Assembly: GCA_024655905.1 (NCBI GenBank)
Contig: JANLFP010000011.1
Location: 1-64,000, forward strand
DNA from: Tepidanaerobacteraceae bacterium
GTDB lineage: Bacteria; Bacillota; Thermosediminibacteria; Thermosediminibacterales; Tepidanaerobacteraceae
Length of the DNA stretch: 64,000 bases
Direction of reading: 5' to 3'
Positions 55,402 through 63,782 of the stretch are shown here, piece after piece. Below the pieces are notes generated by a model. The model worked only from the letters and a program-made list of their open reading frames with translations. It made no database searches and was not told the DNA's origin. The first letter of the stretch is position 1. Each line of letters begins with the position of its first letter. A program made the translations under genes and the position numbers.

Positions 55402-55514
55402 AATTCTTGTTATGTATCATGTGACAGTAACTGAAGATACTTATTTAAACATAGTTGATGAAATACTCGGGGCAAACCTCCGAATCGCTTGAATATATAA
55501 TTGAGGTGGTAGGA

Positions 55515-57056
55515 ATGGGTGACATTCTTGTAAAAATGGAAGGTATCGAGAAATCATTCCCGGGTGTCCATGCGTTAAATCAGGCAAGATTTGAACTGCG
55601 TGCTGGTGAAGTCCATGCTCTGGTAGGGGAAAATGGCGCAGGCAAATCAACGCTGATGAAAGTGCTTGCGGGAATATATTCTAAAGATTCAGGCCATATC
55701 TTTTATAAAGACAAGGAAGTTGAAATCACAAGTCCAAGAGCCGCCCGGGACATGGGGATAAGCATAATTCACCAGGAACTAAATTTGATGCCCCACCTTA
55801 CTGTTGCCCAAAACATTTTCATCGGGCGAGAACCCCGAAAGGGCTTAAATTTTATACTGAATGAAAACCAAATAAATGAGAAAACAAAAGAACTGCTAGA
55901 TATGATTCATTTAGATTTGGATCCGCAAACAAAAGTGGCAAATCTAACTGTAGCCAAACATCAGATGGTTGAGATAGCAAAGGTACTTTCCTTCAGTTCT
56001 GAGGTGCTTATAATGGATGAGCCTACCTCAGCGCTTGCTGAATCAGAAATAGAAGAACTATTCCGCATTATACGGCAACTCCGTGACAAAGGCGTGGGAA
56101 TAGTTTATATTTCCCACCGCCTGGAAGAGTTAAAGCAGATTGCCGATAGAATAACCGTTATGCGTGATGGCTGCTATATCGATACAGCAGATATAAATAG
56201 CGTAACAAAAGATCAGATTATAAGCATGATGGTTGGCCGAGAGATTTATGAAACTGCGCGCCACGAAGCCGCGAACAAAAGCAATGAAATCATTCTGGAG
56301 GTTAAAAATCTAAATCGCGGCAGGGCGATTAAAAATGTAAGTTTTTATCTGAGAAAAGGGGAGATACTTGGCTTTGCGGGTTTGATGGGGGCCGGGCGTA
56401 CAGAGGTTGCGCGGGCTATTTTTGGAGCCGATCCAGTTGATTCTGGCGAAATATTTATTAAAGGCAAAAAAGTAACTATAAAAAGTCCCAAAGATGCTGT
56501 TAAATATGGTATCGGATATCTATCTGAGGATCGCAAAAGGTATGGACTTATACTCGGAATGGATGTAGAAACTAACATTGTACTTGCAGCTTACGAGAAA
56601 TTTCAGGGTGTTTTGGGATATATAAAACAAAACAAAACACGGAAAAAAGCAAAATCATGCATAGATGAGCTTAAAATAAGAACACCGAGCCTGCAGCAAA
56701 AAGTCAAATATCTTTCTGGAGGAAATCAACAGAAGATTGTCATAGGTAAATGGCTGACTAGAAATTGCGATATATTGATTTTTGACGAACCGACACGAGG
56801 TATAGACGTAGGTGCAAAGAGCGAGATATATAAGCTGCTCAATGACCTAGCACAAAGCGGCAAGTCAATAATTATGATTTCTTCTGAACTTCCGGAAATT
56901 CTCCGCATGAGCCACAGAGTCATAATAATGTGTGAAGGTCGCATTACAGGCGAGCTTGATGCAAAAGATGCAACTCAGGAACGCATTATGCAATATGCAA
57001 CAAAACGCGAGAATGCAATAAACACTGAGATTGGGGGTCTGGAATATGCAAAATAA
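55515..57056 (+). CDS. rbsA: Ribose-type sugar ABC transporter, ATP-binding protein
   Basis: 513 residues from ATG 55515 after GAGGTGGTAGGA. It contains two ABC domains in one chain. The first has Walker [13 protein letters not shown] and Walker [12 protein letters not shown]. The second has a degenerate Walker A region (G-L-M-G-A-G-R-T-E), signature LSGGNQQK and Walker [15 protein letters not shown]. This asymmetry is standard for RbsA/MglA/XylG proteins. It powers uptake with the permease whose gene overlaps its last 11 bases. Confidence 0.95.
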
Positions 57057-58026
57057 AGTCACATGTAGCAGTGTTATTCAAAAAAAGACATTATTGCAAT
57101 CGGATACGACGCAAAAATTGTTGGCGTTTGGCAGCCTGATAATTATGTTCATCGTGTTCTCACTGGCATCACCCAATTTTGCAAAATTTGATAATATAGT
57201 TGGTATTTTACTAGCTACCGCTGTAAACGGTGTGCTGGCTGTGGGCGTTACTCTCGTTATTATAACATCGGGTATAGACCTTTCTATAGGAACCGGCATG
57301 ACTTTTGCCTCCGTTATGACAGGAGTTTTCATAACTTACTGTAAGTTACCCATAATTATCGGCGTTTTGGGCGGAATTGCAGCAGGTGCTTTATGCGGCT
57401 TTATAAATGGTACAATCATATCAAGAATGAAAATTCCACCTTTTATAGCAACACTTGGAATGATGATGGCGACCAAAGGCATGTCTCTTGTAATTTCCGG
57501 CGCAAAGCCAATATATTTCACAGATGCACCTGCTTTCAATAAAATAGCCATGGGTTCTATTGCTAGTATTCCCAATGCAGTGTTAATATTTTTCGGCGTT
57601 GCTATAGTTGTAAATTTTATACTTACTAGGACAGTGCTGGGAAGATATACTTTTGCAATGGGAAGCAATGAGGAAGCTGCCCGACTCTCCGGCATCAATG
57701 TTGCCGGATGGAAAATTGCCGTTTATACAATGTGTGGCATACTTTTTGGCTTGGCAGGGGTTTTGATGGCATCCCGCCTTAATTCTGCCCAGCCCGCACT
57801 GGGCCAGGGTTATGAAATGGATGCCATTGCTGCAGCGGTTATAGGCGGCACTTCTCTGAGCGGAGGAGAAGGAACCATCCTGGGGACCGTAATAGGTGCA
57901 TTTATTATGAGTGTCCTGACAAATGGTCTGCGCATTCTTTCGGTTCCTCAAGAGTGGCAGATGGTAGTTACAGGTTCCATAGTTGTTTTGGCTGTGTACA
58001 TGGATATATTGCGCCGCAAGAAATAA
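57046..58026 (+). CDS. rbsC: Ribose-type sugar ABC transporter, permease
   Basis: 326 residues from ATG 57046, overlapping the ATPase gene; the TTG at 57031 is further upstream of the site GGGGTCTGGA. About nine hydrophobic helices. The family motifs '[15 protein letters not shown]', '[23 protein letters not shown]' and '[20 protein letters not shown]' are those of RbsC/BPD_transp_2 permeases. It acts as a homodimer in the membrane. Confidence 0.95.
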
Positions 58027-58120
58027 TGGCAAGGGGGGATCGATATGTAGGGCAAAAATAGTTTAATAGTTAATAATAATACAAGAGTGGAAGAACAAAG
58101 AACGGGAGGTAAAGGTTTAC

Positions 58121-59143
58121 ATGAAAAAGTTTCAAAGGATTTTTGCTGTAGTAGTATGTTTGCTGCTCGTATTAGCGTTATTAGCGGGTTGCGGTCAAAA
58201 GGCAGAAAACAAACAAGAAGAAACATCGCAGACGCAAGCACAACAATCGGAAACAAAATCTACTGAACCTCAGAAAATGTATATCCCTGTAATTTCAAAA
58301 GGATTTCAACACCAGTTCTGGCAGGCTGTTAAACTAGGCGCCGAGAAAGCTGCAAAGGATTACAACGTGGAAATCACTTTTGAAGGTCCGGAAAGTGAAT
58401 CGATGGTTGATAAGCAAATCGAAATGCTTCAGGCTGCCCTAAATAAAAATCCAAGCGCTATTTGCCTTGCTGCCCTAGACAGCAAAGCCGTGATACCTTA
58501 CCTCGAGAAGGCAAAAGAATCAAACATTCCCGTTATCGGATTTGACTCCGGTGTGGATAGCGACATCCCGGTAGCCACCGCTGCCACAAACAATGTTGCC
58601 GCCGCAGCGGCTGCCGCTGACAAAATGGCCGAACTAGTTGGTGGTAAAGGAGAAATTGCCGTTATCGTACACGATCAGACAAGCCGTACTGGAATTGATC
58701 GCCGTGATGGTTTTGTAAAACGCATTCAGGAAAAATATAAAGGCATAAAGATTGTAGATATACAGTACGGCGGCGGCGATCAGCTTAGATCGACGGATTT
58801 AGCAAAGGCTATAATTCAGGCACATCCGAATCTTAAAGGTTTCTTTGGTGCCAATGAAGGTTCTGCCATCGGAGTATTAAACGCTGTAAAAGAATTGAAA
58901 AAAGAAGGAAAGATTGTTGTCATCGGGTATGATGCGGGCAAACAGCAACTTGACGCAATACGGAGCGGAGTAGAAGCAGGCGCCATAACACAAGATCCGA
59001 TCGGTATAGGTTACAAGGCAGTAGAGGCAGCCGTCAAGGCTGTGAAAGGTGAAAAACTGGAGAAGAACATCGATACTGGATTCCATTGGTATGATAAAAC
59101 CAATATAGACTCTGAAGAAATCAAGCCTCTGCTGTATGAATAA
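58121..59143 (+). CDS. rbsB: Ribose-type sugar-binding lipoprotein
   Basis: 340 residues, ATG after AACGGGAGGTAAAGGTTTAC. A signal peptide ends in the lipobox L-L-A-G-C, followed by a Glu/Gln/Thr-rich linker. The mature domain is periplasmic-binding-protein type I (V-I-S-K-G-F-Q-H-Q-F-W, G-F-D-S-G-V-D-S, 'GFFGANEGSAIGVLNAVKE', V-G-Y-D-A-like 'VIGYDAGKQQLD'). It captures the sugar outside the cell for RbsAC. It is the last gene of the operon and is followed by a terminator. Confidence 0.95.
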   Translation: MKKFQRIFAVVVCLLLVLALLAGCGQKAENKQEETSQTQAQQSETKSTEPQKMYIPVISKGFQHQFWQAVKLGAEKAAKDYNVEITFEGPESESMVDKQIEMLQAALNKNPSAICLAALDSKAVIPYLEKAKESNIPVIGFDSGVDSDIPVATAATNNVAAAAAAADKMAELVGGKGEIAVIVHDQTSRTGIDRRDGFVKRIQEKYKGIKIVDIQYGGGDQLRSTDLAKAIIQAHPNLKGFFGANEGSAIGVLNAVKELKKEGKIVVIGYDAGKQQLDAIRSGVEAGAITQDPIGIGYKAVEAAVKAVKGEKLEKNIDTGFHWYDKTNIDSEEIKPLLYE

Positions 59144-59204: not shown

Positions 59205-59423
59205 CGGCTTCATGATTTTAAATGCCTTTCATTGGAAATTGCTTTATCAGCTTCTTATTCCAATCTTTTTGAATAATTGTTTTACCAGTCAGGGTTCCCT
59301 CTTCCAGCTTTTCCAACAACATTTTATAGATAGTGGCATAGAATGTGGTATAATACGTTGTAATATTAAAGATAAAACTTAAATTTATTAAAAATCACTA
59401 CACAGCAAAATCTTCCATCATTA
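59205..59423. other. Intergenic region with a short minus-strand frame
   Basis: On the minus strand a frame of about 34 codons (M-L-L-E-K-L-E-E-G-T-L-T-G-K-T-I-I-Q-K-D-W...) runs from about 59330 to 59220. It has protein-like composition but no good ribosome binding site, so it is probably a remnant. The rest is AT-rich and holds the upstream region of the LevR-type gene. Confidence 0.3.
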
Positions 59424-59439
59424 TGGCATGACTATTGCA
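59424..59439 (+). promoter_or_regulatory. Sigma-54 (-24/-12) promoter of the LevR-type regulator gene
   Basis: TGGCATGACTATTGCA matches TGGCAC-N5-TTGCW with GG at 59425-59426 and GC at 59437-59438. It is only 33 bases before the ATG, so the regulator gene itself appears to depend on sigma-54. Confidence 0.88.
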
Positions 59440-59471
59440 TAAAATGTGAAAATGAAGAGAGGTGATTTCCC

Positions 59472-62400
59472 ATGAAAGACCGCCTTTTGCAGCTAATTAA
59501 ATCGGAGGACAAGAAAAACCCTTACACTGATGACCAGCTGGCAGGCATATTGGGTACCCGGCGGGATGAAGTCACCATTTTAAGAGGGGAGCTCGGTTTG
59601 CCGGACTCCAGGGAAAGAAAAAAGCCCTATCTTGTGAATGCATTGAAGGAATTGATTTCACAAAATCCCAGAATATCCGATAGAGAATTGACCCGTATGC
59701 TCAATCGCCAGGGCTTTAATGTATCAAGGTTTATCGTATCCCAGTTGAGAAAAGAAATAGCTGGAAATATGCCCGCAAAAAATGTATCCGGAAGCAAACC
59801 GGCTGATGTAAACCATGCTGGTGATGAAAAATCAGTCGGTTCGGGGAAAACAAACAACAGTGTAGCGACCAAGGCTTTTGAAAGAATCATTGGCTTTGAC
59901 GGCAGCCTGAAGCCCCAGATTCAGCAGGCAAAGGCCGCAATTCTTTATCCCCCCCACGGCCTTCATACACTAATTCTGGGTCCAACCGGCGTTGGAAAGA
60001 GCAATCTGGCTGAAGCCATGTACAATTTCGCAGTGGAATCGGGGAGGCTTGCCAAAAACGCCCCCTTCGTCATATTCAACTGTGCGGACTATGCGGAAAA
60101 TCCCCAATTGCTTCTGTCGCAGCTTTTTGGCCACGCAAAAGGGGCGTATACAGGAGCGGATACCGCCAAAGAAGGTTTGGTGGAAAAAGCCGACGGAGGC
60201 ATCCTTTTCCTTGACGAAGTACACCGCCTTCCTCCTGAAGGACAGGAGCTGCTTTACTATTTGATGGATAAGGGCAAATTCCGCCGCCTTGGAGAGACGG
60301 AAACCGTCAGGACCGCAAATGTCATGATAATTGCGGCTACCACTGAAGACATTGAATCTTCGCTTCTCTTGACTTTTCGAAGAAGAATCCCAATGATAAT
60401 CGAACTTCCACCGCTATCAACGCGGCCCTTGTTGGAGCGATACAACATAATAAAGGAGTTTTTCGGCAAAGAAGCTGACAGAATAGGCGCCTCAATAAAA
60501 GTAACACAGGAGGCATTAAGGGCTTTATTGCTTTACGATTGCCCGGGAAATATTGGCCAGCTCAGGAGCGACATACAGGTGGCCTGTGCAAGGGGGTTTT
60601 TAACCTATGTGGGTGGGCAGCAGCAGAGAATTGAGATAGATCTTATTGATTTGCCCATACATGCCCGCAGAGGGCTTCTCAAGATACAGAACCGCAGCCC
60701 CGAAACGGAAATATACCTGAAAGGCGACTTCGTTGTGAGTCCCGGGCAAACAAAGACAAAAATTGCGCCAAAGGAAGATTTATATATTCTCCCTCAGGAA
60801 ATCTATCAATATATCGAAGAGAAATATCAGGAACTCCAGGAGCAGGGATTGAGTCAGGAGGTTATAAACAGGGTAATCGGAGGCGAACTGGAAATAAGGT
60901 TTCAGCAGCTGGTAAAGCAGTTCGAGACCAACCGCCAACTGCTGGGGAAACAAGAGCTGATAGGAATAGTGAGTGAAAAAGTTGTAAACATGGCCGAGAA
61001 AATGGTAAATATTGCCGAGAAAAAACTGGGAAAGATGGACAGCCATCTCTTTTACTGTCTTGCCATACACTTGAGCGCAACCCTGGAACGGCTGCAGCAT
61101 AACAAGCCTATAATAAATCCACAGCTTGAAAAGGTTAAAAATGAATACAGACTGGAATATAGAGTGGCAAAAGAAATGGTGGAAGCCGTAGAAAAAATAG
61201 CCGACTATAAAATGCCGGAAGACGAAGTCGGTTTTGTGGCAATGTATCTCCGCACCATAACCCATCCGGTCGATGTGAAGAAGGGGCGCGTAGGAGTTGT
61301 GGTCCTAACTCACGGTCATGTGGCGCAGGGCATGGCGGAGGTAGCAAACAGACTGCTGGGCGTAAACCATGCGGTGGGAATAGAAATGTCTCTGGATGAA
61401 AAACCCGAATCAGCACTACAAAAAGCCATGGAAGTGGTGAGAAAGATAGATGAGGGGAAAGGCGTCCTTTTATTAGTGGACATGGGTTCCCTTATCACTT
61501 TTGGAGAAATAATCACCCAGAAAACCGGCATCCAGACCAAAACTATCGGCAGAGTTGATACCATCATGGTGCTCGAAGCAGTGCGCAGGGCCATACTGCC
61601 TGATACTGATTTGGATGAAATTGTGGCAAATATAGATAAAGATAAGGTGGGGCTGGGGAGGTTTATTCCTGTGGAAGATTCTGAAGGAGAGGAACAGGGA
61701 GAATATAAAAAAGCCATTGTGACTTTATGCATCACAGGCGAAGGGACTGCCATAAAGTTGAAAAGACTCATTGAAAAAATGATTCCGGATATTTCTGAAA
61801 GCGCAGAAATAATACCCATAGGCATAATTGGCGGAGAAGATGTTTCAAAAAAAATAGAAAAAATAAAAAGTGAAAGATGTCTAGCGGCTATAGTTGGAAC
61901 TGTCAATCCGAAAGAGAATGATATTCCTTTTATTTCTGTCGAAGAATTGATAAGCGGTACAGCGGTAAATAAAATTAGAAATATCTTGGAATTAAAAAAT
62001 ACTCGCATTATAAAATTTCAAAATCAAATTACAGTAAAACCATTTATAGACGTTTTATTCGAGGATCTAATTGTTGTTTACCCGGATTTTATTACAAAGA
62101 ATGATATTATTGATAATCTTTCTGAACTTTTAATTCGGAAAAATTATATTAACGATAAATATATATTAGATATATATAAACGCGAAGTGATGGGGCCGAC
62201 AATTATAAAAGATCATATTGCTATTCCACATGGAAATCCAGAAAATGTCGCAAAACCTGCCATCGCAATAGCTGTTTTAAAAAAACCGGTTATATGGTCG
62301 GCAGATAAAGAGGTAGATATCGTTTTTATGTTAGCCTTAAAAGAGGATGCAAAGGGAATATTAAATATTCTTTTTAATGCGATAAATAATGAGGATTTTA

Positions 62401-62477
62401 TTTCCAAATTAAAGTTATTAAAAGATAGCAGAGAGATTAGAAAAGCTTTTTTAGAATATATTTTAAGTCAAAACTAA
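59472..62477 (+). CDS. LevR-type sigma-54 activator with PTS regulatory domains
   Basis: 1001 residues, ATG after AGAGGTGATTTCCC. Residues 1-98 hold two tandem HTH modules that resemble the DNA-binding domain of sigma-54 (RpoN), each with a D-x-x-L-x-x-x-L core. AAA+ (~130-400) has Walker [17 protein letters not shown] and Walker [10 protein letters not shown]. Then come one PRD (~470-600), an EIIA-Man domain (His in [10 protein letters not shown]), an EIIB-Gat-like domain (ITGEGTA, ~750-850) and, in place of the second PRD of B. subtilis LevR, an EIIA-Fru-like domain (His in I-A-I-P-H-G-N near 917). From about 61,850 the gene becomes much more AT-rich. It should activate the downstream PTS under control of PTS phosphorylation. 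Confidence 0.92.
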
Positions 62478-62489
62478 ACCTACCATTAT

Positions 62490-62505
62490 TGGTATGATAA
62501 TTGCT
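62490..62505 (+). promoter_or_regulatory. Sigma-54 (-24/-12) promoter of the PTS operon
   Basis: TGGTATGATAATTGCT has GG at 62491-62492 and GC at 62503-62504. It starts 12 bases after the regulator's stop codon and 439 bases before the first PTS gene, with an IS remnant in between. Confidence 0.85.
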
Positions 62506-62559
62506 TGGTAAATTAATCATAAAGAGAAGGAAGTTAAATAATTTCTGAGTTAAATGTCT

Positions 62560-62880
62560 GTATAATAGGGTTAAATATCCTTTGGCTTTAGCCGCACCTA
62601 CAAGTTAACGATGAGCATCTTCACCATATTCACCTTTAGGAAAAGGGATACTTAAACTAGAGGTGATAGAAAATATAAGGATACAGAAAATTATCACATG
62701 CAATATATGATCAGAAGTATTATTTTATTATGGATAACGAAATATAGAAAACCTTTCTTTGTCGGAAAGATCGTAATAAGAACAAGAGAACTTATAAGGC
62801 AAGTATGTAAGAGCAACGAAGTAGAAATACTCGCAGGTACCTGATTTCAGCAGGTGGTGGGTTCTATTAAAACAAATTAG
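62560..62880 (+). mobile_element. IS200/IS605-type element remnant
   Basis: Two adjacent frames together read as an internal TnpA fragment: Y-R-K-L-S-H-A-I-Y-D-Q-K-Y-Y-F-I (from about 62680), then, after a frameshift, W-I-T-K-Y-R-K-P-F-F-V-G and R-T-R-E-L-I-R-Q-V-C-K-S-N-E-V-E-I-L-A-G, ending at a stop near 62841. This matches the 'Y-H-x-V-x-x-T-K-Y-R...E-L-I-R-x-I-C...V-E-I' block of IS200 transposases. The HUH motif that normally follows directly is missing. GGCTTTAGCC (62584-62593) could be part of an end hairpin. The element is dead; its boundaries are approximate. Confidence 0.65.
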
Positions 62881-62943
62881 CAAAAATCAGCTCAAAGCTC
62901 ATATTTTAATAACTTATCTAATAAGTTAAGGAGGATAAATATA

Positions 62944-63414
62944 GTGAATACAACAACTTATCAATTAGAATTCTATAATCCTATAGAAGAAAACAATTGT
63001 TCGAAGGAAAAGATTTTGGAAGAAATGGCTAGATTTCTTCAGAAAAAAGGATATGTTAAAGATACATTCATAAATGCCATATTAGAACGGGAAAAAATAT
63101 TTCCCACTGGTCTTCAAACTAAAGATATTAATGTAGCTTTGCCACATGCTGATGCAGAACATGTGATAAAACCTGCTATAGTTATTTCAATTTTAAAAAA
63201 GCCGATAATTTTTAATGTTATGGGAGAAAATGATAAAGAAATTCCTGTAAAAATAATTTTTATGCTTGCATTAAATAAACCACATGATCAGCTTTTAATG
63301 TTGCAACAGCTGATGAATCTATTTCAGAAGGAGGGATCTTTAGAAAAAATTATTCAAGCTGAAGATTATAATACAAGTAAAACTTTGTTGGAGAAGGAGT
63401 TGATTAATTTCTAA
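62944..63414 (+). CDS. PTS EIIA component, fructose/galactitol type
   Basis: 156 residues, GTG start after AAGGAGGATAAATATA. The domain has D-x-N-V-A-L-P-H-A-D-A-E-H-V, where the His is the phosphorylation site, plus 'V-I-K-P-A-I-V-I-S-I-L-K-K-P-I-I-F' and 'F-M-L-A-L-N-K-P-H-D-Q', which are PTS_EIIA_2 motifs. It takes phosphate from HPr and passes it to EIIB, encoded 80 bases downstream. Codon use is AT-rich. It resembles the EIIA-like domain at the end of the adjacent regulator, so one may derive from the other. Confidence 0.92.
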   Translation: MNTTTYQLEFYNPIEENNCSKEKILEEMARFLQKKGYVKDTFINAILEREKIFPTGLQTKDINVALPHADAEHVIKPAIVISILKKPIIFNVMGENDKEIPVKIIFMLALNKPHDQLLMLQQLMNLFQKEGSLEKIIQAEDYNTSKTLLEKELINF

Positions 63415-63494
63415 ATTAGATTTTTAATTAATTTATTTTATTAAAATTATTTGGAAGTTTAGGATATTATACTAGCATGATGGAGGTAGCAAGG

Positions 63495-63782
63495 ATGGCA
63501 AAGAAAATTTTAATTGCATGTGGTACCGGTATTTGTACATCGACAATGGCTGCAAAAAAACTGGAAGAATCTCTTAGAAAAAAAGGTAAAGATAAAGAGG
63601 TTACTATTATTCAATGTAAAGTTGCAGAGCTTGTTTCAAAAGCTCTTGATGCAGATTTAATTGTATCAACGACTACTGTATCAGGCAAGATAGATAAACC
63701 TGTTGTTATGGGCACAGCCTTTTTAACAGGAATAGGAGTTGATAAAGTAACGGATGAAATTATTGCTAAATTGGGTATTTGA
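63495..63782 (+). CDS. PTS EIIB component, galactitol type
   Basis: 95 residues from ATG 63495, eight bases after GGAGG; the ATG at 63477 precedes the site. The N-terminal phosphorylation loop is I-L-I-A-C-G-T-G-I-C-T-S-T, with the active Cys in C-G-T-G. The remaining Rossmann-like fold (V-T-I-I-Q-C-K-V-A-E-L, D-A-D-L-I-V-S-T-T) matches GatB/SgcB-type EIIB. Confidence 0.92.
   Translation: MAKKILIACGTGICTSTMAAKKLEESLRKKGKDKEVTIIQCKVAELVSKALDADLIVSTTTVSGKIDKPVVMGTAFLTGIGVDKVTDEIIAKLGI

Follow-up and report, generated by a model that had tools for sequence, protein, structure and literature searches.

A LevR-type sigma-54 activator headed by two RpoN-like DNA-binding modules, and a candidate promoter-proximal site for its subfamily

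The window, a stretch of 64,000 nucleotides from a Tepidanaerobacteraceae bacterium, carries a gene for a LevR-type sigma-54 activator of 1001 amino acids (59472..62477; all features are on the plus strand unless otherwise indicated). The -24/-12 element placed at 59424 by the first-pass annotation is real: the sigma-54 promoter of the activator gene (ATGGCATGACTATTGCA) occupies 59423-59439. A second sigma-54 promoter (TTGGTATGATAATTGCT, 62489..62505) serves a gat operon, the presumed target, whose first gene encodes a gatA-like PTS EIIA (62944..63414). This is followed by a gatB-like EIIB gene (63477..63782) and, past the window end, by EIIC-GAT and two class II aldolases. In the window's order, a good -24/-12 promoter lies just ahead of the activator start and the gat promoter at the activator stop codon. 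A further element upstream, with GG-N10-GG spacing, was considered as a second sigma-54 promoter but rejected: it has GG instead of GC at -12 and is a minus-strand match to the 13-mer described below.

Between the gat promoter and gatA lies a leader (62506-62943) about 300 bp longer than those of close relatives (for example, G005), possibly a decayed insertion; the 62.4-63.0 kb region gave no Rfam match. Directly upstream of the activator locus (55455-59143) is a ribose-type ABC sugar transporter (ATPase, permease and periplasmic binding protein), and a second ABC sugar transporter set with a LacI-type regulator is found past the window (L010, 12693-16001).

Two helix-turn-helix (HTH) modules, module 1 (residues 1-51; 59472..59624) and module 2 (residues 52-99; 59625..59768), form the N-terminus of the activator. 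They are followed by an AAA+ sigma-54 interaction domain (59889..60377; Pfam Sigma54_activat, residues 140-302, 1.5e-40) with Walker A and a GAYTGA loop in its sequence; the corresponding F-to-Y change in GAFTGA is also present in a working activator, TouR (PMC3162934). Pfam then identifies the sole PRD domain of the protein (60996..61253; residues 509-594), an EIIA-Man-like domain (61293..61634; residues 608-721) and, where PRD2 would be expected, a C-terminal EIIA-Fru/Mtl domain (PTS_EIIA_2; 62055..62453; residues 862-994). Between the last two is an EIIB-like segment with the sequence CITGEG (61698..62006). The LevR-type order of PRD1, EIIA-Man and EIIB-Gat behind the AAA+ domain is therefore present, with EIIB recognised only by alignment to the NCBIfam DagR model and by a weak PTS_IIB match in a relative (L153). 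Since the DagR model spans residues 128-845, that is, all but the N-terminus and the C-terminal EIIA, the protein is a LevR-type activator with ends unlike those of LevR. A second (truncated) C-terminal PRD is absent from the window protein and from all nine relatives tested, which have PTS_EIIA_2 at this position; replacement of PRD2 by EIIA is a reported variant among clostridial LevR-like proteins (PMC10864463). A Pfam scan of the activator identified neither the core-binding nor the activator-interacting domain of sigma-54.

The first-pass annotation had proposed, by eye, that the N-terminus consists of two tandem modules resembling the RpoN DNA-binding domain, and Pfam, NCBIfam, PDB profile searches, hhalign and AlphaFold2/Foldseek all agree. 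The Pfam model Sigma54_DBD (PF04552; gathering cut-off, 22.8 bits) matches the N-terminus on its own in two stretches, with 33.8 bits (E=3.5e-8); the first 100 residues pass the cut-off, as does the full-length protein (27.1 bits), and a few relatives score just under it. The top NCBIfam match of the N-terminus is rpoN_sigma (1.9e-6), and a PDB search with residues 1-109 alone ranks structures of the Aquifex RpoN DNA-binding domain first (E=1.4e-4). We also cut an alignment of 19 orthologs into separate sets for the two modules (17 sequences each). Against Aquifex RpoN (2o8k) these gave E=6.4e-12 for module 1 and E=4.2e-5 for module 2, and in neither search did a chain other than RpoN with a passing stretch do better than E=0.089. 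Taken singly, 17 of the 17 module-1 sequences and 11 of the 17 module-2 sequences match Sigma54_DBD (Pfam, E up to 1).

Structure prediction leads to the same result. AlphaFold2 returned two HTH units (mean pLDDT 91.7; helices 2-11, 20-27 and 31-41, then 46-64, 70-79 and 86-98), for which the first-ranked Foldseek match is 2o8k, the Aquifex RpoN domain on a -24 element (34% identity, rmsd 1.5 A, probability 1.00, although E is only 0.025). The repeated pattern described in the first-pass annotation stands to the extent that both modules are RpoN-like, but they are not equal copies. In module 1 the HTH turn is about five residues shorter than in RpoN, but the C-terminal tail (IPDSRERR) is retained; module 2 has the HTH at its full RpoN-type length and lacks a tail of this kind. 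The RpoN box is only partly kept: SR/RR and V...R are retained, whereas the second Arg is replaced, as is, in the window protein, the Tyr that is reported to be crucial (PMC5626770). The two modules are only weakly alike, which makes a tandem duplication plausible but does not establish it. The RpoN of the window genome itself is ordinary. Profile, structure and family evidence thus support the view that the activator N-terminus comprises two modules homologous to the C-terminal DNA-binding domain of RpoN.

A scan using one genome per species identified relatives with RpoN-like heads at 154 genomic loci. The 80 of these that were listed are all from Bacillota and include Tepidanaerobacter, Thermoanaerobacter, Thermoanaerobacterium, Clostridium, Clostridioides difficile, Brevibacillus, Pelosinus, Propionispira, Lachnospiraceae and others; such an activator occurs in 29 of 398 sampled Bacillota genomes. 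Judged by sequence, RpoN-headed LevR-type activators are a Bacillota-wide subfamily. The loci inspected contain the activator followed usually by gatA, gatB, gatC and sugar-phosphate enzymes. Contig C8 of the window genome encodes a further subfamily member, built in the same way and accompanied by a gat-type PTS of its own; the two other LevR-type proteins of this genome begin with a different N-terminus. Some loci are irregular. In L057/L101 (G009) an in-frame stop follows residue 109, just past the RpoN-like modules, while the reading frame of the AAA+ part stays open behind it; this is either a separated head or an effect of assembly or decay. In Thermoanaerobacterium saccharolyticum NTOU1 (L180, 6001-6283) the module region is frameshifted, and the box described below is kept at both promoters.

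For 59 promoters left after deduplication (32 activator and 27 gat), the 45 bp upstream were submitted to an unconstrained motif search. It returned ACAAAATaTGCCA with an LLR of 212, compared with a shuffled maximum of 44. The consensus in the activator and gat-PTS promoters of the family is a 13-bp sequence, ACAAAATnTGCCA, located at about -45 to -33; its 3' end lies 3-7 bp ahead of the sigma-54 17-mer in 78 distinct promoters and exactly 5 bp ahead in 37 of them. A matrix trained on gat promoters matches 20 of 32 held-out activator promoters but only 1 of 31 unrelated sigma-54 controls (p=5e-5), and one trained on activator promoters matches 21 of 27 gat promoters and none of the 31 controls (p=3e-8), these p-values being overstated because the relatives are not independent. 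Real control promoters were used since reversed sequences provided only four sigma-54-like sites. None of 13 promoters near other activators of the window genome, the two ordinary LevR types included, has the motif, and among a total of 44 sigma-54 promoters unconnected with the family it is all but missing. The two promoters of the paralog locus (ACCAAATCTGCAG and ACCAAACCTGCAG) have a common variant, ACCAAA(T/C)CTGCAG, indicating that the site follows the activator and not the genome.

Read as its reverse complement, the motif opens with TGGCA, the -24 core, and this lies on the other strand from the sigma-54 box itself, so that motif and -24 box together form an inverted repeat, TGCCA-N4..8-TGGCA. 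This likeness extends to five bases only: the candidate sites differ from the -24 box as such and hold its core inverted. Of the members with a GK-type module 2, the four that have a site all show AGACA/AGTCA in place of GCCA, whereas CC is found in 57 of the 74 others (Fisher p=0.004). A change of SR to GK in the module 2 recognition helix that tracks the change in the site is only suggested by this comparison, in which the GK type is Lachnospiraceae-type and forms one clade. Many distant members have no recognisable site. In L127, L128, L136 and L147, for example, module 1 is conserved, but the locus as fetched shows no recognisable box close to a sigma-54 promoter; these members may use sites unlike the consensus.

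In the window, the candidate site adjacent to the promoter (site P) occurs at the activator gene (GCAAAATCTTCCA, 59405..59417, 5 bp ahead of the sigma-54 17-mer) and at the gat operon (ACTAAACCTACCA, 62473..62485, overlapping the activator stop codon). Two additional candidates occur at the activator promoter on the minus strand: site U (ACATTCTATGCCA, 59334..59346), 71 bp from P, and site T (ACATTTTATGCAA, 59435..59447; 13-mer as TTGCATAAAATGT), which overlaps the -12 and start region. Copies of U, on the minus strand, tend to lie either 59-62 or 71-75 bp from P, and they are often arranged as 12-bp tandems. Both U and T recur in activator promoters of the window's order; T is in none of the gat promoters of the same genomes. 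P is missing from seven activator promoters that belong to one related family (G013, G015, G016, G017, G018, G020 and G021), in which only U and T are present. A remote upstream activating sequence for the gat promoter within the 3' end of the activator gene was also considered. Minus-strand matches 148-174 bp away appeared to be conserved but all lie in one codon frame over a conserved protein stretch, [AV][DE][LI]VF, so that coding constraint accounts for them.

We consider it likely that the tandem RpoN-like heads read the 13-bp candidate site and set the AAA+ activator directly against the holoenzyme. This reading draws on the homology, fold prediction, family, motif, motif position and specificity relative to other sigma-54 promoters computed here, from which we infer binding of the modules to the motif, promoter-proximal activation, autoregulation and a response to sugar. 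The HTH pair would recognise the site with its inverted -24 core, the TGCCA half probably being read by module 2, and would do so at one copy immediately upstream of -24, both at the activator gene and at the adjacent galactitol-type PTS operon. The activator would be turned on when the PTS phosphorylates its PRD/EIIA/EIIB/EIIA part, as the activity of LevR and CelR is gated by PTS phosphorylation (PMC10864463). The AAA+ ring, beside the -24-bound holoenzyme, would then remodel sigma-54, and the extra copies U and T would tune activator synthesis. The proposal of the first-pass annotation that the protein could bind -24-type elements, its own promoter included, gains good indirect support from the family-specific motif, whose inverted TGGCA core lies next to -24 at both the activator gene and the target operon, and from the further copies at the activator promoter. 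Points against the preferred reading are the partial RpoN box, the likeness of module 1 to the FapR HTH, the seven promoters that lack P, the distant members with no recognisable site and the mere five bases of -24 resemblance. Cooperation with the holoenzyme as against competition, both raised in the first-pass annotation, is here a matter of interpretation. A bolder version is conceivable, although we would lean against it: that the activators took over the DNA-reading domain of the sigma factor in tandem and bind a mirror-image -24 box head-to-head with sigma-54, the AAA+ domain being delivered without a distant enhancer or DNA loop, and that the copy over -12 shuts the activator's own promoter.

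The heads might instead serve mainly to occlude sigma-54, in autorepression, and not to recruit, as does the engineered RpoN* peptide (PMC5626770). A free RpoN domain binds -24 with a Kd of about 109 nM and, as a peptide, blocks sigma-54 promoters (PMC5626770), which would make occlusion at site T a realistic autoregulatory device, and T does overlap the -12 and start region in activator promoters of the window's order. However, no gat promoter there has T; the gat promoters carry P alone, which does not cover -24, and the AAA+ domain keeps Walker A and the GAYTGA loop, so that the protein should activate. As the main function of the heads, occlusion seems to us unlikely, if not greatly so.

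It is also improbable, in our judgement, that the ACAAAATnTGCCA box is read by some other protein or by the holoenzyme (through alpha-CTD or an extended sigma-54 contact), with the activator binding elsewhere or not at all. The -45 to -33 region is near the upstream edge of polymerase, and the fixed place of the box there would be consistent with such a contact. Against this, the box is nearly confined to the family when compared with the 44 outside promoters, the two paralog promoters have one and the same variant, additional copies are found 59-75 bp upstream in opposite orientation, and the loci inspected showed no other conserved regulator gene.

We regard as very improbable a third alternative, in which the N-terminus is an ordinary HTH of the FapR/DeoR or ArgR kind and its likeness to RpoN is convergent and uninformative about the site. 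FapR (loci L256-L284) clearly resembles module 1 and only weakly RpoN: its match to module 1 reaches 2e-11 in hhalign and 0.0011 with NCBIfam, Foldseek gives 4a12 a probability of 0.99, and the FapR HTH, like module 1, is missing the five-residue insertion. For module 2, some members also match ArgR. We compared 86 family members with local RpoN and FapR sets drawn from the same genomes as the activators. Median scores for RpoN and FapR were 31.9 and 18.9 bits, respectively, for module 1 and 14.6 and 1.8 bits for module 2; the corresponding hhalign values against RpoN were E=7e-19 (module 1) and E=2e-11 (module 2, compared with 1e-4 for FapR). RpoN was ahead for both modules in every direct comparison, including the reverse direction, and a FapR origin was accordingly rejected on profile search and hhalign. 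Sequence comparison hints that RpoN, FapR and the RpoN-headed activators belong to one HTH clan. A chance resemblance of a generic HTH is ruled out by the profile and structure matches to RpoN, which outscored every HTH family tested, so that assignment to an unrelated family did not result.

Textbook sigma-54 activators bind about 100-150 bp upstream and reach polymerase by looping (PMC7057263). If the preferred reading, recognition of the candidate site by the tandem heads, is true, this widespread subfamily would represent a promoter-proximal version of sigma-54 activation, its likely site abutting the -24 box on the upstream side, and would show an activator and a sigma factor naturally using one DNA code. 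With the candidate site, LevR-type regulators that are otherwise unassigned, among them those of gut clostridia, would also gain a regulon open to testing.

The closest known systems are LevR of B. subtilis and CelR of B. thuringiensis, which share with the window activator an N-terminal DNA-binding part, AAA+, PRD1, EIIA-Man and EIIB-Gat, as well as PTS operon neighbours and sigma-54 promoters. The window activator differs in its RpoN-like tandem HTH (the two other LevR types of its genome start differently), in having EIIA in place of PRD2, and in its promoter-adjacent candidate site, compared with a UAS at -125 for LevR (PMC10864463). Clostridial LevR-like regulators with EIIA-Mtl for PRD2 (Deutscher 2014, cited in PMC10864463) have the same C-terminal architecture and are probably in part the same proteins as the RpoN-headed subfamily; the text searched mentions neither RpoN-like modules nor the site. 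PMC7438776 classes CD0040 and CD2283 of C. difficile as LevR-type and gives them sigma-54 promoters of their own; their loci are of the same kind: activator, own sigma-54 promoter and a galactitol- or fructose-type PTS. Two C. difficile members are among our relatives, L142, which would correspond to CD0040 given an identical promoter sequence (ATGGCATATAAGTTGCTAT), and L153, which we guess to be CD2283. The RpoN-like domain and the motif are not noted for either in PMC7438776, and in the literature searched (which excludes subscription papers) no description of this arrangement, with Sigma54_DBD/PF04552 on an activator, was found, the label being plain 'LevR-type'. The FapR HTH, related to module 1 in sequence and fold, is weaker than RpoN in all tests and belongs to another kind of regulator. 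New here is a candidate target site for RpoN-headed LevR-type activators. The nearest counterpart of the heads is the C-terminal -24-binding domain of sigma-54, used in engineered form as the RpoN* peptide (PMC5626770), a homologous HTH that suffices in isolation to bind -24; compared with RpoN, the window activator has two copies of this DNA-binding domain and is without the core-binding and activator-interacting parts.
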